Positions 9,976-56,845 of a stretch of DNA of 64,000 bases are shown here, one piece after another. How positions within the stretch are numbered: position 1 is the first letter of the stretch; the number at the start of each line of letters is the position of its first letter. Both the position numbers and the translations under genes were made by a program. This stretch comes from Banduia mediterranea (GTDB lineage: Bacteria; Pseudomonadota; Gammaproteobacteria; Nevskiales; Nevskiaceae), in assembly GCF_031846245.1 (NCBI RefSeq), contig NZ_JAVRIC010000003.1, forward strand, positions 124,001 to 188,000, given 5' to 3'. Below the pieces are notes generated by a model that was not told the origin of the DNA, searched no databases, and was given only the letters and a program-made list of their open reading frames with translations.

Positions 9976-10093
9976 TACAAGCATCTAGTGCCTGGAGAGG
10001 CTTCGACCGCACGAGCCGCGCAGCGGTCCGGCTGGCCCGGTAGACGGCTTGGAGGCTTCGAATCCGGCCAGGAATTTCTCAGGAGGAGCATCA

Positions 10094-10150
10094 ATGCACA
10101 GCGGACCTCGGTCGTGCGGAGTTGCCGTCGCCCCGGTGGCGTGGACATGA
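10094..10150 (+). CDS. Short leader ORF coupled to the carboxylase operon
   Basis: An 18-codon frame (MHSGPRSCGVAVAPVAWT) starts at an ATG placed after the best ribosome site in the region, AGGAGGAG at 10081-10088. Its TGA overlaps the ATG of the carboxyltransferase gene (ATGA at 10147-10150). The carboxyltransferase itself has no convincing ribosome site, so its translation probably depends on ribosomes that finish this leader. The peptide resembles nothing I know. The alternative is a sequencing frameshift that detached the true start; the good coupling geometry argues against that. Confidence 0.5.
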   Translation: MHSGPRSCGVAVAPVAWT

Positions 10151-11754: not shown

Positions 11755-11764
11755 GCCGGCGACC

Positions 11765-13372: not shown

Positions 13373-13432
13373 GGCGCGCGCCGCGCGCCCCGTTCTCCAA
13401 TACCGATTCCGAGTCCGCACTGCGAGTTCCGC

Positions 13433-15424: not shown

Positions 15425-15481
15425 GACGCTCATGAAAGTCTGGGACGCTCATGAAAGCCTGAGACGCTCATGAAAACCTTT
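15425..15481 (+). repeat. Three tandem 19-bp repeats spanning a start codon
   Basis: Units begin GACGCTCATGAAA at 15425, 15444 and 15463 (period 19); the first two continue GTCTGG and GCCTGA, the third runs into the crotonase gene. Each unit carries an ATG (15432, 15451, 15470). Only the third opens the long frame. The second stops after three codons. The first encodes MKVWDAHESLRRS and stops with a TGA overlapping the true ATG (ATGA). The number of units could therefore change translation initiation of the crotonase. Confidence 0.9.
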
Positions 15482-16276: not shown

Positions 16277-16285
16277 GCCAGAACC

Positions 16286-18247: not shown

Positions 18248-18266
18248 ACATCCGGAGTCACTCAAC

Positions 18267-19085: not shown

Positions 19086-19089
19086 GGCC

Positions 19090-25409: not shown

Positions 25410-25420
25410 GGCGCGACCCC

Positions 25421-42123: not shown

Positions 42124-43635
42124 ATGCCTCGTGCCCAGTTCGATGTCATCATCCTCGGTGCCGGACTGTCCGGAATCGGCGCTGCCTGCCACCTGAAGTC
42201 CAAGATTCCCGGCATCAGGCTGGCCATCCTGGAGCGCCGCGAGCGCATGGGCGGCACCTGGGATCTGTTCAAGTATCCCGGCATCCGCTCCGACTCGGAC
42301 ATGTTCACTCTCGGCTATGACTTCCGCCCGTGGACGGATACCAAGCTGCTCGCCGATGGACCTGCGATCCGGCAGTACATCGAAGATGCGGCCGAGGAAT
42401 ACGGCATACGCCGCGACATTCGTTTCGGGCACAAGATTACCCGGGTCAGCTGGTCTGGCAGCGACAAGCTGTGGACAGTGACCGCAGTCAAGGAAAACTC
42501 TCAGGACGAGGAAGCCTCGTTCACGGCCAGCTTCGTGTACGGCTGCACGGGCTACTATAAGTACGACAAGGGCTATACACCGGAATTTCCCGGAGTCGAA
42601 CAGTTCAAGGGCGACGTCATCCATCCCCAGCACTGGCCGGAGAACTATGACTACAGCGGCAAGCGCGTCGTCGTCATCGGCAGCGGTGCGACGGCCGTTA
42701 CGCTGGTGCCGTCGATGACCGACAAGGCTGCGCACGTCACCATGCTGCAGCGGTCCCCCAGCTACGTGGTGTCGGTACCGGAGCGCGACCTGATCACCGA
42801 GAAGCTTCGCAAAGTCCTCCCCGACTCGCTTACGTATCGCATGGCGCGCGTGCGCAACGTGGTGCTGCAGCGCGCGGTCTTCGACGTCTGCCGGCGTGCG
42901 CCCAAGACCATGCGGCGGGTGCTGCTGGCATCGGTGCGCAAGCAGCTCGGTCCGAACGTCGACTTCAGCCATTTCGAGCCTCGTTACAACCCCTGGGACG
43001 AGAGGATGTGCGCGGTACCCAAGGGCGATCTGTTCAAGGCCCTGCGCGACGGCAAGGCTTCGGTGGTAACCGACGGAATCGAGTCCATCACTCAGACCGG
43101 TATCCGGCTGAAGTCGGGCCGCGAACTCGAAGCCGACATCATCGTCACCGCCACCGGCCTGGATATGCAGCTGCTGGGCGGCGCCGAATACTACGTCGAC
43201 GAGCGCAAGCTCGATCTGCACGAGACCCTGATGTACAAGGGCATCCTGCTGGAGGGCGTACCGAATTTCGCCTTGGTGTTCGGTTATACCAATGCGTCGT
43301 GGACGCTGAAGGCGAACATCGCCAATGCCTTTGTTGTCCGCGTGATCCGTCAGATGCGCCAGCTGGGCGCAGACACGGTGGTGCCGGAGGACGAGGAAGG
43401 CTGCGCCTCCGAGGAGAACTTCCTGAACCTGCGTTCGGGCTACATCCAGCGCGCCAATGACCGCTTGCCGCGACAGGGCACCAAGCAACCGTGGCAGAAC
43501 CTGCAGAACTATCTGCTCGACGTGCCAGCCCTGCGCTTCGGCAGTCTGGACGATGGCGTGCTCAGGTTCTACCGGGACGGTCGCCGGGTCTCGCAGTCGC
43601 CTGTGCAGCGGGTGACGAGCCTGCTGGCAGCCTAG
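42124..43635 (+). CDS. Baeyer-Villiger-type flavin monooxygenase (EthA-like)
   Basis: A 503-residue class B flavoprotein monooxygenase. FAD binding is at GAGLSG (residues 12-17), followed by GGTWDLFKYPGIRSDSD, the NADPH Rossmann motif GSGATA (186-191) and, at residues 161-172, F-x-G-x-x-x-H-x-x-x-W-P, the Baeyer-Villiger fingerprint. It inserts oxygen next to a ketone to give an ester, or oxidises S/N atoms. The ATG at 42124 has GGAG upstream. The upstream bases (from 42061) are AT-rich and contain TGATC-N5-GATCA (42068-42082), a possible operator. It is convergent with the ACAD at 43664. In a terpenoid route it would open a keto intermediate, with esterases completing hydrolysis (inference). 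Confidence 0.92.
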   Translation: MPRAQFDVIILGAGLSGIGAACHLKSKIPGIRLAILERRERMGGTWDLFKYPGIRSDSDMFTLGYDFRPWTDTKLLADGPAIRQYIEDAAEEYGIRRDIRFGHKITRVSWSGSDKLWTVTAVKENSQDEEASFTASFVYGCTGYYKYDKGYTPEFPGVEQFKGDVIHPQHWPENYDYSGKRVVVIGSGATAVTLVPSMTDKAAHVTMLQRSPSYVVSVPERDLITEKLRKVLPDSLTYRMARVRNVVLQRAVFDVCRRAPKTMRRVLLASVRKQLGPNVDFSHFEPRYNPWDERMCAVPKGDLFKALRDGKASVVTDGIESITQTGIRLKSGRELEADIIVTATGLDMQLLGGAEYYVDERKLDLHETLMYKGILLEGVPNFALVFGYTNASWTLKANIANAFVVRVIRQMRQLGADTVVPEDEEGCASEENFLNLRSGYIQRANDRLPRQGTKQPWQNLQNYLLDVPALRFGSLDDGVLRFYRDGRRVSQSPVQRVTSLLAA

Positions 43636-43663: not shown

Positions 43664-44818
43664 TCAGGGTCGCGCCTCGAACAGGCGCCGCGCGATGATG
43701 ATGCGCTGTAGCTCGTTGGTGCCTTCGCCGATCGCCAGCAGCGGCGCGTCACGGTAGAGGCGTTCGATGCGCGCTTCGCGCGAATAGCCATAGGCCCCGT
43801 GGATGCGCAGGCACTCTGCAGAGTTTTCCATGGCCGCTTCGGTGGCGAACAGCTTGGCCATGCCCGATTCCAGGTCGCAGCGCCGGCCCTCGTCATAGGC
43901 GCGGGCGGCGGACTCCACCAGCAGGCGCGCGGCCTCCACGCGCGTGGCCATGTCGGCGAGCTTGATCTGGATCGCCTGGTGCTCGCCGATGGGCTTGCCG
44001 AAGGTCTTGCGCTGGCCGGCGTAGGAGAGCGCCTCCTCGAGTGCTGACCGCGCCACGCCCACGCCGCGCGCGGCGACGTTGATGCGGCCCAGCTCGAGGC
44101 CGCCGAGGATCTGCTGCAGACCGCGCCCCTCGACGCCGCCGATGAGCCGGGAGGCGGGGATGCGGTAGTCCTCGAATCGCATCTCCACCGTGTCGACACC
44201 GCGATAGCCGAGCTTGGGCAGCTTGCGCGGCACCGAGAATCCCGGGCCTTTTTCAGCAAGGAACAGGCTCATGCCGCGGTGACGCGGGTCGGCCTGCGGA
44301 TCGGTCTTGACCAGCAGCGCGAAGCAGTTGCCGTGCAGGCCGTTGGTGATCCAGGTCTTGGCGCCGTTGACGAGGTAATCCTCACCATCGCGCCGTGCCA
44401 CGGTGCGGATGGCCTGCAGATCGCTGCCGCAATCCGGCTCGGTGAGCGCGATGCCGCCACGCAGTTCGCCGCAGGCCAAGCGGGGCAGGAACTCGTCCCT
44501 CTGCGCGTCGGTGCCGTAGCGCAGCACGGCGGCGGCCATGATCAGATGCGAGTTGATTACGCCGGACAGCGACATCCACTCGGCGGCAATGGCCTCGATC
44601 AGCCGCGCATAAGTCCGCACCTTGAGGCCGAGGCCACCGTAGGACTCCGGGATGATGGCGCCGAACAGGCCCATTTCGCGCATCTGTTCGACGATCGCTT
44701 CCGGGTACTCGTCGGCCTGCTCAAGGCGGATGGCGACCGGACGTACCTCGCGGGTGAGAAATCGCTCGACAGCCGTAATCAGAGCATCGTCTTCATAGGG
44801 TGCTTCCGAGGCATTCAT
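43664..44818 (-). CDS. Acyl-CoA dehydrogenase, last gene of the 11.7-kb operon
   Basis: A 384-residue ACAD with GGIALTEPDCGSDLQAIRTV, YLVNGAKTWITNGLHGN and the catalytic Glu in LLAIGEGTNELQRIIIARRL, the normal arrangement. It lies 9 bp after the carboxyltransferase stop, so it is co-transcribed. As the final gene of the carboxylase/AtuA operon it would make the enoyl-CoA that is then carboxylated, as LiuA or AtuD do. It differs in sequence from the four other intact ACADs in the window, so each presumably serves a different acyl chain. Confidence 0.94.
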   Translation of the reverse strand: MNASEAPYEDDALITAVERFLTREVRPVAIRLEQADEYPEAIVEQMREMGLFGAIIPESYGGLGLKVRTYARLIEAIAAEWMSLSGVINSHLIMAAAVLRYGTDAQRDEFLPRLACGELRGGIALTEPDCGSDLQAIRTVARRDGEDYLVNGAKTWITNGLHGNCFALLVKTDPQADPRHRGMSLFLAEKGPGFSVPRKLPKLGYRGVDTVEMRFEDYRIPASRLIGGVEGRGLQQILGGLELGRINVAARGVGVARSALEEALSYAGQRKTFGKPIGEHQAIQIKLADMATRVEAARLLVESAARAYDEGRRCDLESGMAKLFATEAAMENSAECLRIHGAYGYSREARIERLYRDAPLLAIGEGTNELQRIIIARRLFEARP

Positions 44819-44827
44819 ATCCGGGCC

Positions 44828-46426
44828 TCACATGCGGAAGATGCCGTAGCGCTGTTCAGCAGGCGCCACGTTGGCCGCGCAGGACAGCGCGATGCCAAGC
44901 GCGTTGCGGGTGTCGGTGGGGTCGAGCACGCCGTCGTCCAGGCAGCGCGCGGAGTACCACAGCGTGGATGTCTCGCGTTCGCACTTTTCGCGCGTACGGC
45001 GGCGCAGCTCGGCCACTTCCTCGTCGCCGGCGTCCGGGCGCTCGCGGCGCAGCTGGCGCAGCTTGACGTCGGCCAGCGTGTTGCCGGCCTGCTCCGGTCC
45101 CATCACGCCCATCTTGGCCTGCGGCCACGAGAAGATCATGCGCGGATCCCAGGAGCGTCCGCACATGCCGTAGTAGCCGGCACCGAAGGCACCGCTGGTG
45201 ATCACGGTGAATTTGGGCACTTCCGAGCCGGCCTGGGCCATGAGCATCTTGGCGCCGTCCTTGGTGATGCCGCGCTCCTCGTACTGGCGGCCGATCATGT
45301 AGCCGGTGGTGTTCTGCAGGAAGATCAGCGGCGTGCCGATTTGGTTGCAGATCTGGATGAAGTGCGCGGCCTTGAGCGAGCTGTCGGAGAACAGCACGCC
45401 GTTGTTGCCGAGGATGCCGACCTTGCAGCCCCACAGCCGCGCCCAGCCGCAGACCAGCGTCGGGCCGTAGGCCGGCTGGTATTCCTGGAACAGGCTGCCG
45501 TCGACCATGCGCGCGATCACCTCGCGCATGTCGAACTGCGTCTTGTAGTCCACCGGCACGATGCCGTACAGCTCGCGCGGGTCGTAGTAAGGCGCTTCCG
45601 GCGCGACCCAGTCGAAGTGCTTTGTCGGCTGCGAGAAGTTGGCGACGAGGGCGCGGGCCAGCGCGATGCCTTCCTCCTCGCTGTCCACCGGGTAGTCGGC
45701 GGTGCCGGAGACGGAGGTGTGCATGTCTGCGCCGCCGAGCGCGTCCACCGTCACTTCCTCGCCGGTGGCCGCCTTCACCAGCGGCGGGCCGCCGAGGAAG
45801 ATCGCGCCGGTGCCGCGCACCATGATCGTGTGCTCGCACAGCGCCGGCACGTAGGCGCCACCCGCGGTGCAGTGGCCGAGCACCACCGCCACCTGCGGGA
45901 TGCCGAGCTTGGACAGCATGCACTGCTGGCGGAACACGCGGCCGCCCATGACGTAGACGCCCGAGAGGTCTTCCAGGTAGCCGCCCGCACTGTCGCACAG
46001 GTGCACCATCGGCAGGCGGTTCTCGATGGCGATCTCCATCGCACGGATGATCTTGGGCGCGGACATCGGGTACCAGGCGCCGCCCTTGTTACTGGAATCG
46101 TCGGCGTGGATCATCACCTCGCGTCCGCTGACGATACCGACGCCGGAAACCACGTTGGCACCCGGCGCCTCGCCGTTGAACTGATCGTAGGCAGCGATGC
46201 TGGACAGCTCCAGGAATGGCGTGCCGGGATCGAGCAGCAGGTCCAGGCGCTCGCGCAGCAGCAGCTTGTTCTGCTTGCGCAGGCGCTCGATGTCGCGCGC
46301 CGGTCGCTCGTGGCGCACGCGGTCCTGCAGGGCCTTGAAGTCGCCGCAGATGCGCTGCATGGCGACGCTGTTGGCGCGAAATGTCGGCGAGGCCGGCGAC
46401 ACACGGGTTTCGAGACGCCGCATCAT
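44828..46426 (-). CDS. Acyl-CoA carboxylase carboxyltransferase beta subunit (copy 3)
   Basis: A 532-residue beta subunit. N-domain: LGHCTAGGAYVPALCEHTIMVRG. C-domain: SGAFGAGYYGMCGRSWDPR then WPQAKMGVMGPEQAGNTL. The loop keeps GAG but has SGAFGAG rather than GGSYGAG. The start at 46426 is one of two adjacent ATGs that overlap the biotin-carrier stop. It belongs with the separate biotin carrier (46423) and biotin carboxylase (46949) immediately upstream, forming a complete three-chain carboxylase. Confidence 0.93.
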   Translation of the reverse strand: MMRRLETRVSPASPTFRANSVAMQRICGDFKALQDRVRHERPARDIERLRKQNKLLLRERLDLLLDPGTPFLELSSIAAYDQFNGEAPGANVVSGVGIVSGREVMIHADDSSNKGGAWYPMSAPKIIRAMEIAIENRLPMVHLCDSAGGYLEDLSGVYVMGGRVFRQQCMLSKLGIPQVAVVLGHCTAGGAYVPALCEHTIMVRGTGAIFLGGPPLVKAATGEEVTVDALGGADMHTSVSGTADYPVDSEEEGIALARALVANFSQPTKHFDWVAPEAPYYDPRELYGIVPVDYKTQFDMREVIARMVDGSLFQEYQPAYGPTLVCGWARLWGCKVGILGNNGVLFSDSSLKAAHFIQICNQIGTPLIFLQNTTGYMIGRQYEERGITKDGAKMLMAQAGSEVPKFTVITSGAFGAGYYGMCGRSWDPRMIFSWPQAKMGVMGPEQAGNTLADVKLRQLRRERPDAGDEEVAELRRRTREKCERETSTLWYSARCLDDGVLDPTDTRNALGIALSCAANVAPAEQRYGIFRM

Positions 46427-46926
46427 GCCTGCGTCTCCTTGTCGGCGAAGCGCAACAGCGCGGCCTTGACGGGAACGGTCTGCCCCGGCGCACACAGCAC
46501 CTCGGCGATCTCGCCGTCGTGCGGCGCGGTGATAGTGACTTCGAGTTTCATGCTTTCCATGGTCAGCAGAACCTGGCCGGCCTCGACGGCGTCTCCGGGC
46601 TGGACCTGCACGGTGAGGATGGTGCCAGGCATCGGTGAGAGGGTGCTGTCGCCGCCGCCGGCGCCGCGCGCGGCCAGGGCGTCGAGCGGGTTGATGCGGT
46701 GCAGGGCGTAGGCGCGGCCGTCAACGTGAATCCAGATGTGGTCGCCGTGCTGCGCGATGTGCACCTCGCGGCGTTCTTCGCCGGCACGCACGCGGTGGCG
46801 GCCGTCGCCGAGTGCCTCAATGGCGCAGGCAAAGCGGCGCTCGCCAGTCTGGAGTTCGTAGCCGTCCGCAGTGCGCAGCAGTGCGCAGGGATGCTCGCGG
46901 TCTTCTAGCGCGATGATCTTTTTCAT
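46423..46926 (-). CDS. Stand-alone biotin carboxyl carrier protein
   Basis: A 167-residue protein. The N-terminal ~90 residues form a small beta domain (RRFACAIEALGDGRHRVR, IWIHVDGRAYALHRIN) like the BT region of MCC alpha. The C-terminal biotinyl domain has MPGTILTVQVQPGDAVEAG and the biotin Lys in TMESMKLEVTITAP. In MCC/GCC alpha these are fused to the carboxylase; here they are a separate gene. The ATG is preceded by AGGAGGAG. The biotin carboxylase stop is 22 bp upstream, and the carboxyltransferase overlaps the 3' end. Confidence 0.92.
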   Translation of the reverse strand: MKKIIALEDREHPCALLRTADGYELQTGERRFACAIEALGDGRHRVRAGEERREVHIAQHGDHIWIHVDGRAYALHRINPLDALAARGAGGGDSTLSPMPGTILTVQVQPGDAVEAGQVLLTMESMKLEVTITAPHDGEIAEVLCAPGQTVPVKAALLRFADKETQA

Positions 46927-46948
46927 GGTCTTCGGATCTCCTCCTGCT

Positions 46949-48442
46949 TCAATTGCGCCAGGGGCCCATGGCGGCGTAGATCGCCGGCACGGACGCGGCG
47001 GCGTCCAACATCTGGCGATCACTCAGCGCGGCGGCGGCGAGCAGGATGTCGGTGGGCACGGTCTCGTCCTTGCCCGACAGCGCGGCGGCTTCCTGCTCCA
47101 GAAACGCGGTGGTGTAGTCGCCCGAGGCAAAGCGCGGATGCGCGAGGATGCGGTCGAGGTAGGCGATGTTGGTGGTCAGGCCCAGCAGCACGGTGTCGCG
47201 CAGCGCCTGGCGCGCGCGGGCAATGGCCTCGGCACGGTCGCGGCCGTGCACGATCAGCTTGGACAGCAGCGGGTCGAAATCCGTACCCACGGTCTGGCCC
47301 TCGTGCACGCCGCTGTCCACGCGCACGCCGGGGCCGGTGGCCTCGCGCAGAAGGTGGATGCGGCCGGTGGCCGGCACGAATCCCGCCGCCGGATCCTCGG
47401 CGCAGATGCGCAGCTCGATGGAATGGCCGCGGTGGACGATGTCGGCCTGCGCGTAGCCCAAGGCTGCGCCCTCGGCCACGCGCAGCTGCTCGGCCACCAG
47501 GTCGAAGCCCGTCACCATCTCGGTGACCGGGTGCTCGACTTGCAGGCGCGTGTTCATCTCCAGGAAATAGAACTCGCCGTCGGCGCCGTAGATGAACTCG
47601 ACCGTCCCCGCGCCGACGTAGCCGGCGGCCTTGGCGATACCGACGGCGGCTTCGCAGATGCTCTTGCGCTTCTCCGGGTTCAGCACCGGCGAGGGGGTTT
47701 CCTCCACGATCTTCTGGAAGCGGCGCTGCACCGAGCACTCGCGTTCGCCGAAGTGCACGACGTTGCCGTGAATGTCGCCGAACACCTGCACCTCGATGTG
47801 GCGCGGCCGCTCGACGTAGCGTTCCACAAACAGCCGCCCGTCGCCGAAGTAGCGCTCGCCCTCGCGCCGCGCCGTGGCCAACTCGGCCTCCAGCGTCGCC
47901 GCCTCGCGCACGATGCGCATACCCTTGCCGCCGCCGCCCGCTGCGGGCTTGATCAGGATGGGCAGATCCACCGCCAGCGCGCGCTTGGCAAACGTCGCCG
48001 GGTCATCGGCCTCCACTGCGCTGGGCGCGACCGGAAAGCCGCGCTCGACCACGAAGTTGCGCGCGCGGATCTTGTCGCCCATCAGTTCGATGGCCTCGGC
48101 CGTGGGGCCGACGAAGCGGATGCCGGCCTCGGCCAGCCCGCGTGCCAGCGCGGCGTTCTCGGAAAGAAAGCCGTAGCCCGGATGCACCGCGTCCGCGCCC
48201 CACTCGCGTGCGGCACGGACGATCTCCGCGACATTCAGATAGGCGACGACAGGCGTTGGCCCCTCGATCGGCAGGCAGTCGTCGGCCAGACGCGGCGCGG
48301 TGCCGCCTTCCTCGGCCGGGTGCCGGACGATGGCAGTGGTGATGCCGCGGGCCCGCGCGGTGCGCAGGATGCGTGCTGCAATCTCGCCGCGGTTGGCGAC
48401 GAGCAGGCGCCGGATGGGCTTCAAGGCAGAAGTCGTACTCAT
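46949..48442 (-). CDS. Biotin carboxylase subunit without carrier domain
   Basis: A 497-residue biotin carboxylase: RRLLVANRGEIAARILRTAR, KPAAGGGGKGMRIVRE, ECSVQRRFQKIVEETPSP and EMNTRLQVEHPVTEMVTG are all present. It ends soon after the BC C-domain with no BT or biotinyl domain, which is supplied by the next gene. It carboxylates the biotin of that carrier. The ATG overlaps the AtuA stop (four bases), so AtuA and the carboxylase are produced together, in reversed order compared with the plus-strand operon. Confidence 0.94.
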   Translation of the reverse strand: MSTTSALKPIRRLLVANRGEIAARILRTARARGITTAIVRHPAEEGGTAPRLADDCLPIEGPTPVVAYLNVAEIVRAAREWGADAVHPGYGFLSENAALARGLAEAGIRFVGPTAEAIELMGDKIRARNFVVERGFPVAPSAVEADDPATFAKRALAVDLPILIKPAAGGGGKGMRIVREAATLEAELATARREGERYFGDGRLFVERYVERPRHIEVQVFGDIHGNVVHFGERECSVQRRFQKIVEETPSPVLNPEKRKSICEAAVGIAKAAGYVGAGTVEFIYGADGEFYFLEMNTRLQVEHPVTEMVTGFDLVAEQLRVAEGAALGYAQADIVHRGHSIELRICAEDPAAGFVPATGRIHLLREATGPGVRVDSGVHEGQTVGTDFDPLLSKLIVHGRDRAEAIARARQALRDTVLLGLTTNIAYLDRILAHPRFASGDYTTAFLEQEAAALSGKDETVPTDILLAAAALSDRQMLDAAASVPAIYAAMGPWRN

Positions 48443-50223
48443 TCGAAGCTCAGCGAAGCGGGTACCATGACGGGATGGTCGAGCAGCATCTGAGCAAAGG
48501 CCTTGCCCTGCGGGTCGATGCGGATGGAGGCGATGCCGCCGCCGCCGAGCGCGCGCTCCAGCAGGAAGTTCAGGCCGTGCACGCCGGGCATGTCCCAGCG
48601 GTGCACCGGGCCTTCGCAGAGGTGGGCGAACCAGCCGGCCACGGCCTCGGGCGTGAGCGCGGCACGGATGTAGGGCAGGTATTCAGGACGGCGCGCGAGC
48701 ACACCGATGTTGGCGGAGTCGCCCTTGTCGCCGCTGCGCGCCCAGGCCAGGCGCAGCAGTGGCACTTCGCGCGAGCCGCCCTCAAAGGCATCGGCGGCCG
48801 GCAGCGGCCCGGAGACGACGGGCAGGGTGGCAGGGTCGTAGCGCTCGCCGCTCATCTGCGGGCAGGCGATGGCCTGGCCGTCCAGCTCCAGGCGTACCGG
48901 GATGCGCGACTTGTCCCACAGGTAGGAGAACAGCCGCACCACCGGCTGCACCTTGGGCCGGCCGCCGACGAAGCCGGTGATGGCCGGCGCGGTGGCCAGC
49001 GCCATTGGCGCCATCTCGCGCGAGAAGATCTCCAGCGCGTCCTTGCTGGAGTGGCGCACGCCCATCTTGACCATCACCTCGCGGGTGACGGCGCGCGCGT
49101 GCGGGCCGTAGGTGGCTTCAGCGCCGAGCACTTCCGTGCAGGTCTCGGTGAAGTCGTCCAGGCCGCGTTCGGCGAACAGGCGCCGGCAGCGCGTGTACAG
49201 CGCCTCGGCCACGCGCTCGCCTTTCTGCTGGGCGTCGACACCGCCGATCATCAGCATGGCGATGGCGCGGAAGCCGTCGGCATAAGTCGCGCTGACCTTG
49301 CACTGCGTGGTGGCCGGTCCGCCGCGCGCGCCGCTGACGCGCACGCGGTTGTCGCCGGCCTGCTCCAGCCGCACTTGGGTGAAGTCGCAGCGCACGTCCG
49401 GCAGCAGGTAGGCGCGTGGATCGCCGATCTCGTAGACCATCTGCTCGCCGACGGTGGAGGGCACGATCAGGCCGCCGGTACCGGGCGGCTTTTCCACCAC
49501 GAAGCTGCCGTCGGGCTCGCACACCGCGATCGGAAAGCCCATGTTGTCCCAGCCCGGCACGCGGTGCCAGTCGGTGTAGTTGCCGCCCGTGGTCTGGGTG
49601 CCGCACTCGATGATATGGCCGGCGAGGCTGCCCTGGGCCAGCCGGTCGTAATCCGTCGACTCCCAGCCGAAGGCGCTGATCAGTGGGCCGAGCACCACCG
49701 CGCTGTCCACGCAGCGGCCGGTCACAACGATGTCGGCGCCGGCGTCGAGCGCAGCAGCAATGGGAAAGGCGCCCAGATAGGCGTTGGCGCTCATCAGGCG
49801 CGCCGGCAGATCGGCGCCTGAAAACATCTCGCGCACGCCGGCTGCGCGCATGGCCTCGACCTGCGGCATCAGGTCATCACCGGTCACTGCGGCGATTTTA
49901 AGCGTAAGGCCTTCAGCCCTGGCGGCCTCGGCGAGGGCTTGCCGGCAGGCGCCGGGGTTCACGCCGCCCGCGTTGCTCACCACGCGGATGCCGCGTTCCT
50001 TGAGTTGGCGCAGAAGTGGGCGCAGCGTGGTGACGAAGTCGGGCGCGTAGCCGGCCGCCGGGTCCTTGGCCTTGGCACGGGTCAGCAGCGACATCGTGAT
50101 TTCGGCCAGATAGTCGAAGACCAGGAAGTCGAGCTTGCCGCCGTGCACCAACTGGGTGGCCGCATACTCGGTATCGCCCCAGAAGCCGGAAGCGCAGCCG
50201 ATGCGCAGAGAAGTGCGGGTCAT
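48439..50223 (-). CDS. AtuA family protein (second copy)
   Basis: A 594-residue AtuA-family protein: LRIGCASGFWGDTEYAATQL, SNAGGVNPGACRQALAEAAR, DIVVTGRCVDSAVVLGPLI and, in the C-terminal domain, WARSGDKGDSANIGVLARR. It parallels the protein at 21045 motif by motif but is clearly diverged. The start at 50223 overlaps the thioesterase stop (four bases). The biochemical role of AtuA is unknown to me; its strict company with carboxylases in both operons here supports a role in handling gamma-carboxylated acyl-CoA. Confidence 0.9.
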   Translation of the reverse strand: MTRTSLRIGCASGFWGDTEYAATQLVHGGKLDFLVFDYLAEITMSLLTRAKAKDPAAGYAPDFVTTLRPLLRQLKERGIRVVSNAGGVNPGACRQALAEAARAEGLTLKIAAVTGDDLMPQVEAMRAAGVREMFSGADLPARLMSANAYLGAFPIAAALDAGADIVVTGRCVDSAVVLGPLISAFGWESTDYDRLAQGSLAGHIIECGTQTTGGNYTDWHRVPGWDNMGFPIAVCEPDGSFVVEKPPGTGGLIVPSTVGEQMVYEIGDPRAYLLPDVRCDFTQVRLEQAGDNRVRVSGARGGPATTQCKVSATYADGFRAIAMLMIGGVDAQQKGERVAEALYTRCRRLFAERGLDDFTETCTEVLGAEATYGPHARAVTREVMVKMGVRHSSKDALEIFSREMAPMALATAPAITGFVGGRPKVQPVVRLFSYLWDKSRIPVRLELDGQAIACPQMSGERYDPATLPVVSGPLPAADAFEGGSREVPLLRLAWARSGDKGDSANIGVLARRPEYLPYIRAALTPEAVAGWFAHLCEGPVHRWDMPGVHGLNFLLERALGGGGIASIRIDPQGKAFAQMLLDHPVMVPASLSFE

Positions 50224-50723
50224 AGGGTCGTATCTCCGGAGGTGGAGGCCGCTCCGCGCGGCCAGAAAATGCGCCAGATGCCCTTGGCCGTGGCGCAGAC
50301 TTCGCCTTGGTCGTTGAGCAGTTCGCCTTCGGCGAAGGCGGTACCGCGGCCCACGCGCAACACGCGACCGGCGGCCTTGAACGCGCTGCCGCGAGCGGCC
50401 GTCAGGTAGGTGATGTCGAGATTGATCGTCACCTGTGAATAACCAGCGAGATCGGCGCCAGCCGCCCGCAGCTGCGGCATCTGGGCTGACACGATCGCGT
50501 AGCCCAGTGCGCCGTCGAACATGTAGGAAATGACGCCACCGTTGATGGCGTCCGGCGGGCCGCCGGCACCGCGCTGGGCCGGGGTCGGGTTTCTCAGGAA
50601 CAGGGCGACCTCGCCAGTTGAAACCTCCTCTGAGGTCAGCCCTTGGGCGGTCATGAAGGGACTGGCGTCCCAGTTGTCTTTGAACAAATACGGGGCCACT
50701 GCGGGAGAGGTGTCGTTCGGCAT
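50220..50723 (-). CDS. PaaI-like hotdog thioesterase
   Basis: A 167-residue hotdog-fold protein. The helix motif DAINGGVISYMFDGALGYA and strands VTINLDITYLTAARGSAFK, RVLRVGRGTAFAEGELLND and ATAKGIWRIF are typical of the PaaI/YbgC-like thioesterases, with Asp in the MFDGAL helix the likely base. It would hydrolyse acyl-CoA, perhaps to relieve CoA sequestration. It overlaps AtuA downstream and begins 22 bp after the ACAD remnant. Confidence 0.85.
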   Translation of the reverse strand: MPNDTSPAVAPYLFKDNWDASPFMTAQGLTSEEVSTGEVALFLRNPTPAQRGAGGPPDAINGGVISYMFDGALGYAIVSAQMPQLRAAGADLAGYSQVTINLDITYLTAARGSAFKAAGRVLRVGRGTAFAEGELLNDQGEVCATAKGIWRIFWPRGAASTSGDTTL

Positions 50724-50745
50724 GGGAGCTTGTGGAAAATTCAGG

Positions 50746-51066
50746 TCAATAGGAGCGGGGCAGTCCGAGGACGTGCTCGCCGATGTAGTTTAGGATCATT
50801 TCGTTGTTGACGGACGCCACGCGCATGAGCCGGGCAAACGGCCATTGGGCTCGGTCACGCCGAAGCACATCCTGGCTTCGCCGGTAGCCGTGGGTGTGAC
50901 GAACTTGCGGATCTGCTCGGGCGTACCGTGCCGGACTATCGGCATGCGCGCGAAGCTGCCGAGCACGAAGAACAGCGAGATGATGCCGGCGCGGGCGGTG
51001 TCGGGTGATGCGACGCGTCAGGCCCTCCGCTGCTTCGCGGACGGCGGCGTTGGTGTCTTCGCTCAT
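50746..51066 (-). pseudogene. Acyl-CoA dehydrogenase remnant
   Basis: The first 20 codons (MSEDTNAAVREAAEGLTRRI, with AGGAG ribosome site) are a normal ACAD start. After a break the second frame reads FARMPIVRHGTPEQIRKFV and GEARMCFGVTEPN, the central ACAD motif. After another break the first frame gives VNNEMILNYIGEHVLGLPRSY, the C-terminus of the ACAD group seen at 4925-6082. About three quarters of the protein is missing through internal deletions and frame changes, so it cannot be active. It remains in the operon between DUF35 and the thioesterase. Confidence 0.85.
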
Positions 51067-51102
51067 CCTGGTCTCTCCTGCGGCGGGCTGTATATCTTGT
51101 GC

Positions 51103-51510
51103 TCAGGCCGGCTCGAACTGCGGAATCCGGAATCCGCTGCCGCGTGTTTCGAAACACAGCTTCAGCGCCATGCCGATCCGAACGGATTCCGGCGGACAGT
51201 TGAGGATGTTGGCCATCATCCGCGGCCCTTCTTCCAGTTCCACGATCGCCAGAACGTAGGGGCAGTCGTCCTTGAACGCGGCGTAGGGAGGCTGATAGAC
51301 GATGCTGTAGCTGTAGAGCGTGCCGCGGCCGCTGGCCTTCTCCCAGGCCGGGTCCGGGGAGTAGTCGTAGGGGCTCCAGCGGCGCGGATAGAGGAAGGCC
51401 TTGCCGGTGCCGCGGCAGCGCTGGATCATCAGCTCGCCGCGCTGTGCGGCCTCCCAGTAGGGGCGGGCGTCGGGCAGGACTTCGGGGACGGGCTTTCCGG
51501 TGGCGCTCAT
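51103..51510 (-). CDS. DUF35 OB-fold protein (acyl-CoA-associated)
   Basis: A 135-residue DUF35 protein: N-terminal helix and degenerate zinc ribbon (MIQRCRGTGKAFLYPRRW, with only the first of the usual four Cys) then an OB-fold (GRGTLYSYSIVYQPPY, YVLAIVELEEGPRMMANI, SVRIGMALKLCFE). DUF35 proteins work as partners of thiolase-like enzymes, as in steroid side-chain retro-aldolases (Ltp2 with ChsH2). The gene overlaps the thiolase-like gene by four bases, which fits a stoichiometric complex. Confidence 0.88.
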   Translation of the reverse strand: MSATGKPVPEVLPDARPYWEAAQRGELMIQRCRGTGKAFLYPRRWSPYDYSPDPAWEKASGRGTLYSYSIVYQPPYAAFKDDCPYVLAIVELEEGPRMMANILNCPPESVRIGMALKLCFETRGSGFRIPQFEPA

Positions 51511-52676
51511 GACTGGTTCGAGAGGATCAGTGTGGCGTGTTCGGACATCATGCCGCCGTAGCAGTGGACGATGCCGGTGCGGGCGCCGGGGAGTTGGCGC
51601 TGGCCGGCGTCGCCCATCAGTTGGCGGGCGGCCTCGACGATCATGGTCTGCCCGGACGCGTCGCCGACATGTCCGAAGGACATCAGGCCGCCATAGGTGT
51701 TCACTGGAAACTCGCCGCCCGGCCCCGTCCGACCGCCCTCGAAGAACCGCCCGCCCTCACCCTTGCGGCAGAAGCCGAGATCCTCGGCGTAGATGATGGG
51801 ATTGATGCTGAAGGAGTCGTACAGCTGCGCGAAATCCATGTCCTTTGGCGTCAGCCCGGCCATGCGGTAGGCGCGCGCCGAAGTGTCGTGCGAGCCTAGC
51901 GTCGTCAGGCTCGTGGCTTGACTGATGCTGGCGTGGGTGTGCTTCTCACCATAGCCGAGCAGATAGCAGGGCTGCGAATGGAAGCGCTTGGCATTCTCCG
52001 GGCTGGTCACGAGCACGGCCGAGCCGCCCTCGCTCGGTACCGAGCAGTCGAACAGGTTGAACGGGTAGGCAATGGGTCGCGAGGACAACACCTGGTCGAC
52101 GCTCAGCGGACCCTGCGGCGCCATCAGCGCATCCGGATGCAGCAGCGACCATTCGCGCTGTGACACCGCCACCTGGGCAAGCTGTTCACGCGTGGTGCCG
52201 AACTCGTGCATGTGACGCACGGCGGCGAGCGCGAAGATCGGCGGGATGTAGGTGCCGTACGGATACTCGAACTGGGGATGGCTGATGAGCTTGCTCATCA
52301 GCTCGGAAATGCCGCTGCCCACGTTCGGGAACCGGCCGGCGCCCAGGCACAGCACCGAGTCGCACAGGCCCTGGCCGATCGCCAAGGCCGCCCGGATCAG
52401 CATCAGCGCATAGGTTCCCCCGCCGGCGTTGATCGCCTCGCTGAAGGTCGGCTGGATGCCGAGTTCCTCGGACAGCTTTTCATGCGCGAAGACGTCGACC
52501 TCGGTGGCGGCCATGCCGACCGGCGCCGACAGCAGGCCCTGGATGTCCTGCGGACGCAGCTTCCACTCGCTCAGGAACTGGCCGAGCACCTGCCGGTACA
52601 TTTCCATCCCGTCGTACTGCGGATAGCGGCCCGGCTTCATCTCCGAAACTGCGACGATGGCGGCAAGTGGCTTCAT
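51507..52676 (-). CDS. Thiolase-fold protein lacking the nucleophilic Cys (possible retro-aldolase)
   Basis: A 389-residue SCP2-thiolase-like protein. At the nucleophile position it reads EAINAGGGTYA, with Asn83 where its neighbour has Cys88. The thiolase HDCF motif is YDSF (Tyr286), GHP is GHV (His336), and the C-terminal motif is HCYGG (Tyr373). Loss of Cys with Tyr in place of His is the pattern of the steroid side-chain aldolase Ltp2, which needs a DUF35 partner; exactly such a partner overlaps this gene. So retro-aldol cleavage of a 3-hydroxyacyl-CoA is more likely than thiolysis (inference). ATG 52676 is chosen because the domain begins there. Confidence 0.88.
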   Translation of the reverse strand: MKPLAAIVAVSEMKPGRYPQYDGMEMYRQVLGQFLSEWKLRPQDIQGLLSAPVGMAATEVDVFAHEKLSEELGIQPTFSEAINAGGGTYALMLIRAALAIGQGLCDSVLCLGAGRFPNVGSGISELMSKLISHPQFEYPYGTYIPPIFALAAVRHMHEFGTTREQLAQVAVSQREWSLLHPDALMAPQGPLSVDQVLSSRPIAYPFNLFDCSVPSEGGSAVLVTSPENAKRFHSQPCYLLGYGEKHTHASISQATSLTTLGSHDTSARAYRMAGLTPKDMDFAQLYDSFSINPIIYAEDLGFCRKGEGGRFFEGGRTGPGGEFPVNTYGGLMSFGHVGDASGQTMIVEAARQLMGDAGQRQLPGARTGIVHCYGGMMSEHATLILSNQS

Positions 52677-52689
52677 GCCTGCGGCCTTC

Positions 52690-53895
52690 CTAGCGGTAAC
52701 GCCCGACGATGGAGATGCCGACCACATTCTGGTGCGGAAATCCGCCGAGATTGTGGGTCAGACCATAACGCGGATCCTTGAGCTGGCGCTCACCGGCACG
52801 GCCCTGCAGTTGCAGATACATCTCATAGACCATGCGAATGCCGGACGCGCCAATCGGGTGGCCGAAACATTTCAGGCCACCGTCGATCTGGCAGGGGATC
52901 TTGCCGTCGGCGTTGTAGAAGCCGTCCATCACGTCCTTGATCGCGCCACCGTCCGCGGACAGCCCAAGATCCTCCATGGTCACCAACTCGGTGATCGAGA
53001 AGCAGTCGTGCACCTCGAACATCGACAGCTCCTCGCGTGGCTTGCCGATCCCGGCCTCGGCGTAGGATCGCTGCGCAGCCTTGCGCGTGGTCAGAATGTA
53101 GGAACCATCCCAGTCGTTGTAGCCGCCTTCGGACCCGTTGGACAGCGCGAGCTGCAGCGCCTTGACCGTGACCATGTTGTCCGGATGCTTGCCCAGCGAC
53201 TTCGCGATTTCCGGCGTGGTGACGATGGCTGCGGCCGAACCGTCGGAGACGCCGCAGCAGTCGAACAGGCCGAGCGGCTCGGCGATCATCGGCGAGGCCA
53301 TGATGGTGTCGCAACTGACTGGCTTGCGCAGGTGCGCCTTGGGATTCTTCGCGCCGTTGGCGTGGCTCTTGGCGGAGATTTCTGCCAGCGCGCGCTTGAG
53401 CACGTCGCGCGGAACCTTGTAGCGGCTCATGTAGGCGCTGGCCACCTGCGCGAACACGCCGGGCGCCGAGAGGTTGGGCCACCACAGCGGCGGCAAGGTG
53501 CCGATCTCCAGGCCCGGCAGCCCGCCGTAGCCGGTGTCCTTGAGCTTTTCCACGCCGATTGCCAGCGCGATGTCGCAGGCACCGGCGGCGACCGCATAGA
53601 CCGCACCGCGGAAGGCTTCGGTGCCGGTCGCGCAATAGTTCTCGACGCGCGTCACCGGAATGTTGTCGAGGCGCAGCGTCAGCGAAGCAGGTGTTGCCGA
53701 CTTGCCGATGTTGACCTCGTCCATGCAGGAGCCAAGCCAGGCCGCGCCAATCTCGCGGGTTTCGATGCCGGCGTCTGCCAGCGCCTCGGAGAATGCCTCC
53801 TCCATCAACTCCTCGGCGCCCATGTCCCAGCGCTCGCCGAACTGCGAGCACCCCATGCCCAGAATGGCCACCTTGTCTCGGATACCGTCGGCCAT
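52690..53895 (-). CDS. Thiolase (SCP2/acetyl-CoA acetyltransferase-like)
   Basis: A 401-residue thiolase with intact catalytic residues: Cys88 in ENYCATGTEAF, HDCF (296-299) and His346 in CFGHPIGASG. It would cleave a 3-ketoacyl-CoA, or run the reverse condensation. The ATG is one base from the stop of the HMG-CoA-synthase-like gene upstream, and it ends 13 bp before the Cys-less homologue. Having both an active thiolase and a Cys-less thiolase side by side argues for two different C-C cleavages in one pathway. Confidence 0.92.
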   Translation of the reverse strand: MADGIRDKVAILGMGCSQFGERWDMGAEELMEEAFSEALADAGIETREIGAAWLGSCMDEVNIGKSATPASLTLRLDNIPVTRVENYCATGTEAFRGAVYAVAAGACDIALAIGVEKLKDTGYGGLPGLEIGTLPPLWWPNLSAPGVFAQVASAYMSRYKVPRDVLKRALAEISAKSHANGAKNPKAHLRKPVSCDTIMASPMIAEPLGLFDCCGVSDGSAAAIVTTPEIAKSLGKHPDNMVTVKALQLALSNGSEGGYNDWDGSYILTTRKAAQRSYAEAGIGKPREELSMFEVHDCFSITELVTMEDLGLSADGGAIKDVMDGFYNADGKIPCQIDGGLKCFGHPIGASGIRMVYEMYLQLQGRAGERQLKDPRYGLTHNLGGFPHQNVVGISIVGRYR

Positions 53896-53896
53896 C

Positions 53897-55354
53897 TCAG
53901 GCCTCCTTCGCGGCAAGCGGCGCCGCTTTCCAGAAGTAACGAATCATTCCGCGTTGCGGATCGCGACCGCGCACACGGAACACCATGCGGACCGGCTCGC
54001 CAACGGCCACCGTACCGACATCCCAGTCGGTGATGTCGGCCATGAACCGGCCCCCACAATCGAACTCGATCATGCCGTAGTGCGCCGGCGGCTCGGGTGT
54101 GTAAGTCAGCCAGTCCGAGGCCCAGGTCTTAATGCGCGCGGGCTCGTCGGCAAATCGGTGCGGGTCCATCTCGCCTGCGTGGTGGCAGCCTGGATTGACA
54201 CAGCGCAGCGCGGGGGGGAATTGCGCTGTGCCGCATTTGCGGCAGCGACCACCAACCAGCCCCGTCAGCATGCGCCGATTGCGATACATCGTCGACAGCG
54301 CAGTCTGCGGGTTGGCTTCGGCGCGCAGCCCTTTCTCCAGCGTCACGACCTCGTTGAAAGCCTGGAACTTGGCATAGTCGGTGATCTCCTTGCGTCGAGC
54401 CAGGCAGGCCTTGACAGCAACGCGGGGCGCGAGCTGCGCAATCGCTGATGTCGTCCGGAACACAAGCACATCGCAGCCCTGTCCGAAGCTGACCAGGATC
54501 AGGGTTTGCCCCGGCGCAGCGGCTTCAAGGGCGTTCGCCAGCAGCAGCGGTGCGTGCGCGGCCCCCGCGTGTCCGACCGAGCCAAGCAGCCCGTCCGTCA
54601 CCGCAGCATCGGCGATGCCGACACGTTTGGCGACGGCCGCTGCGAGTTTCGGGGCCGGTTCGGCGAGCAGGAACTGATCCACGGCGCCGGCCTCGATGTC
54701 CAGTTTTTTCAGGGCGGCCGCAACCGCTGCTGGCACCCACTTCTGGAACGCCTCGTCGCGCAGCCAGCGCTCCTCCCAGTGATAGTCGAAGGGCTGGCCG
54801 GCGGCACGATAGTGATCCACGAAATCCGTCGAAACGCTGTGACCGCCCAGATACTCGGCGATCACGCCGCTGCTGCCGAGCGTGAACGCTGCGGCCGCGT
54901 CGCCATACATCAGTTCCTGCGCGCTGGCCGAACGTGCACGGCGGTGCTCGCCAGCGACGACCAGCGCCTCGTCGTCCGCTTGCACGGCAACGTGGTTCAG
55001 TGCGGCGAGCAGCGCTGCGGTCCCTGCCTTCAGCGACCCGCCGAGGTCGGTGGTGAAGACGGTTTCCGGCAGGTCCAGCGCCCCGGCGACGACTCCGGCG
55101 TTCTGCCGGTCCGCGAACGGATGTGTGGTCGAGCCGAAATAGACAGCACCCGGAGTGGTCTGCCGGTCCGCGAGCGCATGGCGTGCGGCCTCCACCGCCA
55201 TGGTCAGGCTGTCTTCATCCCAACCCGCCATCGCACGCTCCCCGCGTGCCTGCGCCATCAGTCCGGGACTGCTCCAGGCATTGGCCTTCGCCGCTGTCGC
55301 GCGGTTCAGGCGCCCACGCGGCACGTAGGCACCGAAAGATGTGATCCCGATCAT
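53897..55354 (-). CDS. HMG-CoA synthase-like protein fused to DUF35
   Basis: A 485-residue fusion. Residues ~1-330 are a KAS III/HMG-CoA synthase-type thiolase fold (GITSFGAYVPRGRLNR, ELMYGDAAAAFTLG, LLGSVGHAGAAHAPLLL). Residues ~365-480 are a DUF35 module with a zinc ribbon (Cys371, Cys374, Cys385, Cys390) and OB-fold. The region usually holding the catalytic Cys reads TDLGGSLKAGT: Leu108 stands in its place, so classical HMG-CoA synthesis is doubtful. It is the first gene of the 11.7-kb minus operon, 65 bp from the operator at 55420. ATG 55354 has GGAG upstream. Confidence 0.88.
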   Translation of the reverse strand: MIGITSFGAYVPRGRLNRATAAKANAWSSPGLMAQARGERAMAGWDEDSLTMAVEAARHALADRQTTPGAVYFGSTTHPFADRQNAGVVAGALDLPETVFTTDLGGSLKAGTAALLAALNHVAVQADDEALVVAGEHRRARSASAQELMYGDAAAAFTLGSSGVIAEYLGGHSVSTDFVDHYRAAGQPFDYHWEERWLRDEAFQKWVPAAVAAALKKLDIEAGAVDQFLLAEPAPKLAAAVAKRVGIADAAVTDGLLGSVGHAGAAHAPLLLANALEAAAPGQTLILVSFGQGCDVLVFRTTSAIAQLAPRVAVKACLARRKEITDYAKFQAFNEVVTLEKGLRAEANPQTALSTMYRNRRMLTGLVGGRCRKCGTAQFPPALRCVNPGCHHAGEMDPHRFADEPARIKTWASDWLTYTPEPPAHYGMIEFDCGGRFMADITDWDVGTVAVGEPVRMVFRVRGRDPQRGMIRYFWKAAPLAAKEA

Positions 55355-55413
55355 GGAGTCTCCGACAAAAGGCTCTCGGGGAGAGCCGACATTTTGATGC
55401 CCGGCAACGGCAT

Positions 55414-55442
55414 TCTCTAACTAACAGTTGTTAGTGTGGCAG
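55414..55442 (-). promoter_or_regulatory. Promoter with ACTAAC-N4-GTTAGT operator for the HMGS/thiolase operon
   Basis: On the minus strand CTGCCA (55442-55437) and TAGAGA (55419-55414) are separated by 17 bp holding the perfect 6-4-6 inverted repeat ACTAAC-AACT-GTTAGT (55435-55420). The layout equals that at 30344-30372, and the repeat recurs at 6154-6169. A dimeric repressor is likely. The -10 is poor, so the transcript may need help or be weak. Confidence 0.6.
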
Positions 55443-55476
55443 TTGTTGTCGCTGGCGCGCAAGTCCGAGTCCGGGA

Positions 55477-56724
55477 TCAACCTGGCAGGTCGGCGAAAGC
55501 CAGCATCACATGTACCTGTATCTCTCCCACCAGGAAACCGAGCGCGGCGCCAACGGCAATGAGGATCCACTCGTCCTGCTGGAACGCCGGGCGCAGCAGG
55601 GCCTCGAACTCGTCGGCGGAGAGACCGCGCATCTTCTCCGTGAGCAATTTCTCCAGGTCCAGCGCTTCTGCAACATAGGGCTCTGCATGGCTCATGGCCT
55701 CGGGCAGCAGCCTCAGGACCTGGTCGGTGACGGCCCGTTTGATGTCGAGAAAGCGCTGCGTGCCGATGGCCGAAACCACGAAGGGCTGCGCCAGGCCGGC
55801 TTCGCGGTCGGTGGCGTCGCTGATTTCGCGCTGGATCATCGCATACAGGCGGTCCGACAGGGGGCCGCTGAGCACGGCGTCGAGGATGGCGGCGGGTGTC
55901 AGCACGCGCTGCGCGATCATACGCGCGTAACTGGCGGCCACCTCATGGCGGTGCTGGAGGAACAGGCCCTGCCAGGTGAACAGCCCGAGATAGCGCGTCG
56001 GCTGTTTGGGCCGGAACACCAACTTGAGCGCCAGCCAGTCGCTGAACCATCCGGTGAGCCCGCCGAAGACCGGCATGATCCACACCGAATGGGTCAAGGC
56101 CCAGGCCAGCGCCTGCACCAGGCCGATTAGCAGCCCGAAGTAGATTCCGGATCTGCGGATGAACCGAAATTCGGCGTGACCTACCTCCCGGAACATCTGA
56201 TTGAGGAGTCGTTTGTCGCGGCTGAGCAGGCTCACCACCATGTGCCTGAGATCGAAGACGGAGGACAGGTTTTCGCGAATCTGCGTCATCATCTCCTCGA
56301 CCAGTGCAGGTGTCTGCTGCTCGATCCGCTGGAGCAGCGTCCTGCGCAGGACATCCGGAATGCGTGACCACAGGTCCGGGGCCTGCTGCGCGCAGACTTC
56401 GCGAACGATCGTTTCGACCGAGGCGCTCAGGGGCCTCTGAACTTCGAGGGCGACGCGCCACGGTTCCAGCCTCGCGAATAGCTCCTCTGGCTTGAGCAGC
56501 CGTGCGGTCAGCGTGTCGCAGGCAATGGCGGCCATGCGCTCGGCGTTGCGCGGAACCACCCCCTGCCACCCCAGAAACGGCGGGCGGATGCCAACAAAGC
56601 GGATCGGCTCGAACATCATGTAGATGGCGGCCAGCTTCGTGCCGTAGCCGATCAGGGCCGCGACCAGCGGCATGGAGGCATACAGAAGCCAGTTGGCCCC
56701 GATGTCAGCGAGGATGTCAGTCAC
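55477..56724 (-). CDS. DUF445 family membrane protein
   Basis: A 415-residue DUF445 protein starting at GTG. An N-terminal helix (WLLYASMPLVAALIGYGTKLAAIY) is followed by the family motif MMFEPIRFVG. A middle pair of helices lies at SGIYFGLLIGLVQALAWAL and VFGGLTGWFSDWLALKLVF, and a C-terminal helix at WILIAVGAALGFLVGEIQV. The middle part is soluble and alpha-helical. The function of DUF445 proteins is not known to me. It is on the same strand as the HMGS operon but separated by 122 bp that contain the operator, so it is probably its own unit, maybe with the MerR gene upstream. Confidence 0.85.
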   Translation of the reverse strand: MTDILADIGANWLLYASMPLVAALIGYGTKLAAIYMMFEPIRFVGIRPPFLGWQGVVPRNAERMAAIACDTLTARLLKPEELFARLEPWRVALEVQRPLSASVETIVREVCAQQAPDLWSRIPDVLRRTLLQRIEQQTPALVEEMMTQIRENLSSVFDLRHMVVSLLSRDKRLLNQMFREVGHAEFRFIRRSGIYFGLLIGLVQALAWALTHSVWIMPVFGGLTGWFSDWLALKLVFRPKQPTRYLGLFTWQGLFLQHRHEVAASYARMIAQRVLTPAAILDAVLSGPLSDRLYAMIQREISDATDREAGLAQPFVVSAIGTQRFLDIKRAVTDQVLRLLPEAMSHAEPYVAEALDLEKLLTEKMRGLSADEFEALLRPAFQQDEWILIAVGAALGFLVGEIQVHVMLAFADLPG

Positions 56725-56845
56725 GTCCGGGTCATCACGAAAGATGGGCAGGCACGCGTGAGCCTTACCCGGACCTGCAGGAGCCTATCCGAACACATGG
56801 AGCGATGCCGGGCTAACCCTGCGAGCCGGCAATTTTTGCGTATTT

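Follow-up and report, generated by a model that had tools for sequence, protein, structure and literature searches.

The 64,000-nucleotide stretch of Banduia mediterranea considered here (GCF_031846245.1, contig NZ_JAVRIC010000003.1, positions 124,001-188,000 of the forward strand; hereafter the window) carries a minus-strand operon, spanning positions 55354 down to 43664, in which a thiolase-fold protein without the thiolase cysteine (P0001) is encoded together with a DUF35 partner (P0002). As judged by sequence comparison, this pair is most likely a thiolase-fold acyl-CoA retro-aldolase, its nearest characterised relative being the aldolase CtSal, and the retro-aldolase reading which a first-pass annotation of this DNA had put forward is supported in this form. 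As to its role, we tentatively favour, with slightly less than even confidence, that the pair acts as a retro-aldolase on a bulky beta-hydroxyacyl-CoA within an atu-like operon, separate from the branch formed by AtuA and a thiolase. Genes, residues, clade membership and conservation are what the sequence provides, and from these we infer every reaction and substrate named below. Coordinates refer to the window unless contig C2 of the same genome or a locus label (L006 and the like) is given.

At the level of family models, P0001 is matched in Pfam by C-terminal thiolase domains only, the nearest NCBIfam model being PRK06158 (341 bits, under the cut-off of 421), and 42.5 bits are reached with the 'lipid-transfer protein' model PRK07937, which we take to be the Ltp4 family. 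Among solved chains, phmmer returned 4u4e (a 'putative thiolase') first and 9myr second with 192.7 bits, the latter being by its PDB title the Sal-Shy(DUF35) aldolase of Comamonas testosteroni, and Ltp2 of Thermomonospora curvata (TcLtp2, 6ok1) followed well below with 115.6 bits. An AlphaFold model of P0001 (pLDDT 84) was matched best by 9myr in VIA-align (Z 48.9, root-mean-square deviation 2.6, 382 aligned positions, 31% identity). The structural comparison with Ltp2 which the first-pass annotation had proposed, made with the model of P0001 alone, confirmed the shared fold (Z 46.3) and at the same time identified Sal as the closer relative. In a tree of 72 rows, P0001 falls into a clade of 18 rows (support 100/100), which is sister to the CtSal group and lies outside of it with support of 93/88, a value below the star threshold of the tool, and Ltp2 and 4u4e are placed elsewhere, the 6ok1 branch being long. 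On this sequence evidence, P0001 is assigned to a clade of its own beside Sal, within a known enzyme type. With Ltp2-ChsH2 it shares the fold, the Tyr base and the DUF35 partner; the Ltp2 pattern earlier ascribed to it was not confirmed, as Ltp2 has YDHF, which P0001 lacks, the site of Ltp2 Tyr344 is occupied by His336 (count on the alignment), the place in the tree is a separate one and CtSal is closer than any other characterised homologue.

P0001 lacks a Cys near the thiolase site whichever alignment is used, and the residue facing the thiolase Cys was identified as Asn83 in four MAFFT alignments (one and three further modes), as Gly86 in one MAFFT alignment and as Ala84 by pairwise global alignment; BLASTP did not align this part of the protein. 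Gly86, rather than Asn83, is favoured, because counting without gaps from the G-x-C-D motif further downstream and the match to CtSal Gly89 both point to it, and hence of the earlier claim that Asn83 replaces the thiolase Cys the presence of Asn83 and the absence of the Cys stand, the position itself being disputed. The motifs Y286-D-S-F and H371-C-Y-G-G, to which attention had been drawn before, are read in the sequence. For CtSal, Tyr302 and Cys304 are given as catalytic residues, for TcLtp2 Tyr294 and Tyr344, and roles are described for CtSal Tyr302, Gly89 and Gly391 (PMC12329534). These last three are conserved in P0001, where they correspond to Tyr286, Gly86 and Gly375, so that P0001 resembles Sal-Shy in fold, in lacking the nucleophilic Cys, in the YDxx Tyr, in both Gly positions and in its DUF35 partner, and differs from it in Ser288, Leu331, His336 and Pro145, which take the places of Cys304, Gln347, Gln352 and Gln161, and in Tyr373, which maps to Thr389.

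Conservation follows the same line. Tyr286 is present in 60 of 60 Cys-less rows and, like Gly375, invariant in the P0001 clade, and Tyr373 is found in 18/18 clade rows as compared to 0/42 other Cys-less rows. Cys372 occurs in 14 of the 18 clade rows, with Ser, Ala or Val in the other four, and position 288 is Ser in 12/18 and Ala in 6/18, leaving the Sal acid Cys304 (YDCY) without a counterpart. The idea of a Cys swap, by which the Cys of YDCF would have moved to CYGG, was retained in part only, as Cys372 is not universal in the clade; judged by these alignments, Tyr373 fits a clade-specific role better than Cys372 does. Tyr286 and Tyr373, earlier proposed for mutation, remain good targets.

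For the DUF35 partner P0002, whose gene overlaps that of P0001 by four bases as first reported, the alignment revealed that one of four zinc Cys is retained, close homologues being likewise degenerate and most other DUF35 rows of the same alignment keeping the zinc Cys; a MaoC domain, by Pfam, was not found on it, which is a further difference from Sal-Shy. In a survey that covered 26 fetched loci and, counting the own genome, 85 genomes from the order, a DUF35 match lies beside the P0001-type gene in 25 of the 26 loci, none being found in L031. As P0001 lacks the known general acid, an aldolase reaction would need a different residue in this role, and the loss of both known acids together with that of the DUF35 zinc site means that P0001 may have no activity or may catalyse a different reaction. 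A reading in which P0001 is no aldolase, serving instead as structural partner of the neighbouring thiolase P0003, as a weak TbSLP-like decarboxylase or being a degenerate protein, draws on these losses and on the slow activity of TbSLP as a possible parallel, malonyl-CoA decarboxylation by TbSLP being reported as very slow (PMC12329534). We consider it quite unlikely, given that neither Tyr286 nor Gly375 varies within the clade, that Tyr373 is clade-specific (18/18) and that the proteins of different genera are still about 82-90% identical.

The genes of the operon and the adjoining monooxygenase gene are collected in the following table. The four genes from P0004 to P0002 were located on the minus strand as first annotated, and AtuA and the carboxylase, expected in one operon with the pair, both lie downstream in the same direction.

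Table. Genes of the operon and its neighbour in window coordinates, with the basis of each assignment
Feature	Position	Strand	Basis
P0004: HMG-CoA-synthase-like domain fused to DUF35	53897..55354	-	Pfam/NCBIfam; PDB matches 6esq_I, PhlA; residue reading
P0003: PRK06157 thiolase with Cys and HDCF	52690..53895	-	NF004810, residues
P0001: thiolase-fold protein without Cys; Tyr286, Ser288, His336, Cys372, Tyr373	51507..52676	-	sequence, model, tree
P0002: DUF35 (ChsH2-type OB fold) partner, degenerate zinc ribbon	51103..51510	-	Pfam, alignment
acyl-CoA dehydrogenase gene remnant	50746..51066	-	alignment, locus comparison
4HBT hot-dog thioesterase-like protein	50220..50723	-	Pfam
AtuA with ferredoxin-like C-terminal domain	48439..50223	-	PF07287 2.4e-147, PF23544
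biotin carboxylase (BC) subunit	46949..48442	-	Pfam
BT/BCCP subunit, split MCC/GCC alpha subunit, MESMKLE biotinylation motif	46423..46926	-	Pfam BT_MCC_alpha, Biotin_lipoyl; translation
CT1: MCC/GCC-lineage carboxyltransferase bearing both GCC-type marks (Gly present, 3-residue insertion absent)	44828..46495	-	matches and alignment
acyl-CoA dehydrogenase, operon end	43664..44818	-	domain/profile matches
flavin monooxygenase, possibly Baeyer-Villiger type, adjoining the operon	42124..43635	+	FMO-like; weak PtlE match

The two genes upstream of the pair form a module of their own. P0003 matches NF004810 (PRK06157) with 667 bits (cut-off 403) and keeps Cys (ENYCATG) and HDCF, so that the active-type thiolase expected next to the pair is probably present. 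P0004 lies below the HMG-CoA synthase cut-offs (NF003274: 191.6 bits, cut-off 244), and the claim of an HMGS-like/DUF35 fusion with Leu108 at the catalytic Cys was borne out, the catalytic His being missing too (Ala where the archaeal enzyme has His); all nine HMGS-like rows that were read, P0004 and eight homologues, lack both residues. By analogy, P0004 is probably a non-catalytic, PhlA-like scaffold for P0003. In the acyltransferase PhlABC (5m3k) and in the archaeal acetoacetyl-CoA thiolase/DUF35/HMGS complex (6esq) the same three parts come together and PhlA shares with the HMGS-like part of P0004 the missing Cys, whereas here DUF35 is fused to the HMGS-like part and the context is catabolic. 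Since the P0003-P0004 pair was also found, within incomplete gene tables, in three plasmid regions without annotated AtuA or carboxylase, two of which carry ring-hydroxylating dioxygenase genes, it seems to be a thiolase module of general use. Of the acyl-CoA dehydrogenase remnant, the first 23 and the last ~50 residues still match a counterpart which is intact in L007, L010, L012 and L019 and degraded also in L006.

The operon recurs in Nevskiales beyond chance. Among named organisms, Solimonas sp. SE-A11 has the protein closest to P0001 (90%), followed at 81-83% by Nevskia, Algiphilus, Polycyclovorans, Panacagrimonas (partial) and Extensimonas, and the block of thiolase, Cys-less protein, DUF35, AtuA, BC, BCCP and CT1 is kept in the same order in 6/26 loci, a contig end cutting the thiolase in L007 and CT1 in L008. 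P0001 is matched at E 1e-100 or better in 10 of 85 genomes and at 83% identity or more in eight (one partial), which are termed cluster genomes in the following and include the own genome. AtuA orthologues of at least 77% identity are confined to 7/85 genomes, all among these eight, one with an in-frame TAG; AtuA relatives of up to 60% are common, some match being found in 66/85 genomes. P0001 relatives at 52-57% have the DUF35 gene (L163-L167), and no AtuA or carboxylase homologue was found in their fetched flanks, L167 ending at a contig end. In Extensimonas (Comamonadaceae; L009, L011), the P0001 homologues (81-82%) lie outside an AtuA operon, and these genomes contain a related HMGL/carboxylase cluster (L131), which suggests horizontal transfer.

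Many of the genes at 712-13372 and 43664-57586 of the window and at 80-180 kb of contig C2 have matches within a single stretch of a Nevskia contig (34-176 kb, compared over all but 1 kb), hence they appear to belong to one catabolic island; for the window genes at 15-43 kb, orthologues were not found in that stretch. Two more Cys-less thiolase-like genes with DUF35 neighbours locate to the island (L042:1172-2723 and L040:10380-11555, the DUF35 gene of the latter at C2:111720-111911), their products belonging to the 4u4e clade with the motifs YDAF and YDSF. The linked island also encodes a citryl-CoA lyase family protein (L042:7377-8210; 333 bits, cut-off 193), a possible C-C lyase. A second atu-like cluster at 9946-22829 contains two genes each for carboxyltransferase, carboxylase alpha subunit and enoyl-CoA hydratase, along with an acetate/acetoacetate-CoA-ligase-like gene and another AtuA, 53% to that of the operon; an HMGL-family gene was not found in it. 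A large molybdopterin oxidoreductase is encoded at 25091-27733.

Within the operon, the carboxyltransferase CT1 has MCC beta as its best overall PDB match. Two marks distinguish GCC from MCC, namely a Gly in place of the MCC Phe and the lack of a three-residue insertion (PMC4673880). Both GCC marks are present in CT1 and in 5/5 aligned orthologues, the Phe/Gly position having been placed via the insertion and the GCC row of the alignment, as the chain numbering differs from that of PMC4673880; because of these two geranyl-CoA-type marks, CT1 should, by its sequence, take a bulky substrate. Four more carboxyltransferase genes are present in the linked island, of which that at 39736 is GCC-like (599 bits) and those at 9946, 11765 and C2:163038 were assigned from NCBIfam and alignment alone. 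Among the operon genes, no hydratase was found by Pfam/NCBIfam-type matches; candidates locate to 15470-16276 and 18171-19085, both under the cut-off of the gamma-carboxygeranoyl-CoA hydratase model.

As to the subsequent lyase step, one paper assigns it, following carboxylation and hydration, to AtuA, and the AtuA-like proteins ThnQ/ThnS are stated to cleave 3-hydroxy-3-alkylglutaryl-type CoA, for which unpublished results are cited (PMC12016498), whereas PMC4097962 assigns the step to LiuE, which conflicts with the AtuA assignment. By sequence, AtuA has no solved relative at E 0.01, and its structure model (pLDDT 59) is too poor for use. By analogy, AtuA is probably the 3-hydroxy-3-alkylglutaryl-CoA:acetate lyase. 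A profile search of the own genome revealed no HMG-CoA lyase above the cut-off; total absence of this enzyme was nevertheless rejected, since a diverged HMGL-like gene, P0005, resides on contig C2 (C2:166605-167711, L043:6605-7711; 218.8 bits, cut-off 246), which keeps HxH and GGCP, has REG for RDG and a 4-residue insertion, and goes together with the cluster. Genes of this diverged type (208-219 bits) were found in 6/85 genomes of the order, that is in six of the eight cluster genomes as compared to none of the 77 others, with a Fisher value of 6.4e-8 that is descriptive only because genome relatedness is uncorrected. The remaining two cluster genomes have a canonical HMG-CoA lyase, so that some HMGL is present in 8/8 cluster genomes as compared to 45/77 others. 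In Solimonas sp. SE-A11, which carries the operon, a search for the diverged form found none.

These data bear on the earlier proposal that the pair replaces HMG-CoA lyase. In its present form, it would have the pair cleave a 3-hydroxy-3-alkylglutaryl-type CoA on the CoA side, replacing HMG-CoA lyase for the bulky substrate, with the HMGL-like protein taking the small one; the pair does reside in a carboxylase operon with GCC-type marks, the own genome and five other cluster genomes (6/8) have only the diverged HMGL, the own copy being on another contig, and a precedent exists in C24-branched sterols. We nevertheless regard this version as unlikely, since the lyase step is assigned to AtuA, which this operon itself encodes, some HMGL, be it canonical or diverged, is kept in all eight cluster genomes, the 52-57% relatives are without an AtuA or carboxylase homologue in their fetched flanks and Extensimonas has the pair without CT1. 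The proposal as first made is thus not supported, replacement by the pair being a possible, albeit doubtful and not the best reading. A sequence leading from the carboxylated tertiary alcohol via AtuA to the thiolase fits the operon without the Cys-less pair, and the pair is therefore given a separate retro-aldol step.

Clues to the substrate point in more than one direction. Terpenoid or branched-chain compounds are suggested by the two AtuA genes of the window, by the hydratases matching the gamma-carboxygeranoyl-CoA hydratase model below its cut-off and by the GCC marks. Alicyclic compounds come into play with a cyclohexanecarboxylate-CoA ligase-like gene (666 bits, cut-off 792) and cyclohexanecarboxyl-CoA dehydrogenase-like genes (497 and 570 bits, cut-off 575) of the island. 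Ltp2 makes a ring ketone, and an Ltp2-like action of the pair would convert a 1-hydroxycycloalkyl-acyl-CoA into a cyclic ketone and acetyl- or propionyl-CoA, the ring then being opened by the flavin monooxygenase acting as a Baeyer-Villiger enzyme, whose gene likewise adjoins the operon in L006 and L010. To this sequence of events a low probability is given, as all three cyclohexane matches lie below their cut-offs, the match of the monooxygenase to the Baeyer-Villiger enzyme PtlE is weak (89.5 bits, cut-off 1100), no copy of its gene was found next to the operon in L012 or L019, P0001 groups with Sal and not with Ltp2, and the step would leave carboxylase and AtuA without a role. The canonical steroid-ring route is disfavoured because KshA was not found in the own genome. 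A phytosterol side chain as substrate was weakened as a candidate, KshA_C being found in two of six genomes only (G001 and G004) and absent from the search results for G000, G005, G006 and G008. Carboxylation combined with retro-aldol chemistry is precedented in C24-branched sterols, for which C-28 carboxylation, hydration and retro-aldol cleavage were proposed (PMC3546705), the general idea being in print also in PMC4761994.

The mechanism which we favour, if tentatively, takes the operon to be an atu-like unit for the gamma-carboxylation of a bulky enoyl-CoA, either branched or alicyclic, where the acyl-CoA dehydrogenase would be followed by the split carboxylase, by hydration through a hydratase encoded elsewhere and by AtuA cleavage to a 3-oxoacyl-CoA, which P0003 would then thiolyse while held by P0004, an HMGS-DUF35 scaffold that is probably inactive. 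An additional retro-aldol cleavage, distinct from the HMG-CoA-lyase step, would be made by P0001-P0002 on one of the intermediates of this route. Here, Tyr286 is suggested to take the proton from the beta-hydroxyl group with the backbone amides of Gly86 and Gly375 holding the oxygens, whereupon the C-C bond would break to yield a ketone or aldehyde and the acyl-CoA enolate. The latter would become protonated by a residue other than the counterparts of Sal Cys304 or Ltp2 Tyr344, candidates being Tyr373, Cys372 and His336. That Tyr286 and Tyr373 (or Cys372) constitute a third catalytic solution, acting on a bulky 3-hydroxy-3-alkylglutaryl-type CoA from a dedicated geranyl-type carboxylase, with the work of HMG-CoA lyase being shared such that the pair or AtuA takes bulky and the diverged HMGL small substrates, is deemed improbable.

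Several points weigh against the favoured reading. Foldseek puts 4u4e first and 9myr second for the P0001 model, VIA-align scores the archaeal thiolase 6esq (Z 47.3) and TbSLP (Z 47.2) nearly as well as 9myr, and the join to CtSal has the sub-threshold support given above. Both known catalytic acids are missing from P0001 and the zinc site of P0002 is lost. The hydratase is not part of the operon, its candidates residing elsewhere in the window; the lyase role of AtuA derives from an assignment and from unpublished results in a review, LiuE being named in PMC4097962; and Extensimonas has P0001 at 82% without a CT1 orthologue (best 46%).

A paper bringing most of these parts together was not found in the open-licence PubMed Central literature, and the operon is best described by its likeness to several known systems. 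With the Atu (citronellol/geraniol) pathway it shares AtuA, acyl-CoA dehydrogenase and a carboxylase with GCC marks, and differs from it in the alpha subunit being split into two genes, in the lack of an operon hydratase and in the added aldolase pair and thiolase/HMGS-DUF35 module. The C24-branched sterol route with Ltp3/Ltp4 resembles the proposed one in its order of enoyl-CoA, allylic carboxylation, hydration, retro-aldol cleavage and CoA activation of the beta-keto acid, as outlined in PMC3546705 and PMC4761994, and is set apart by the KshA not found in the own genome and by the low PRK07937 score of P0001. From Sal-Shy, finally, the pair is distinguished by the carboxylase and AtuA of its operon.

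Relatives of thiolases that lack the Cys often carry a thiolase annotation, though Sal and Ltp2 proved to be aldolases. The P0001 clade, being without the acids of both, would show the same fold finding another proton donor, and the operon provides a testable case for which enzyme carries out the lyase step following gamma-carboxylation, be it AtuA, the diverged HMGL or the aldolase.

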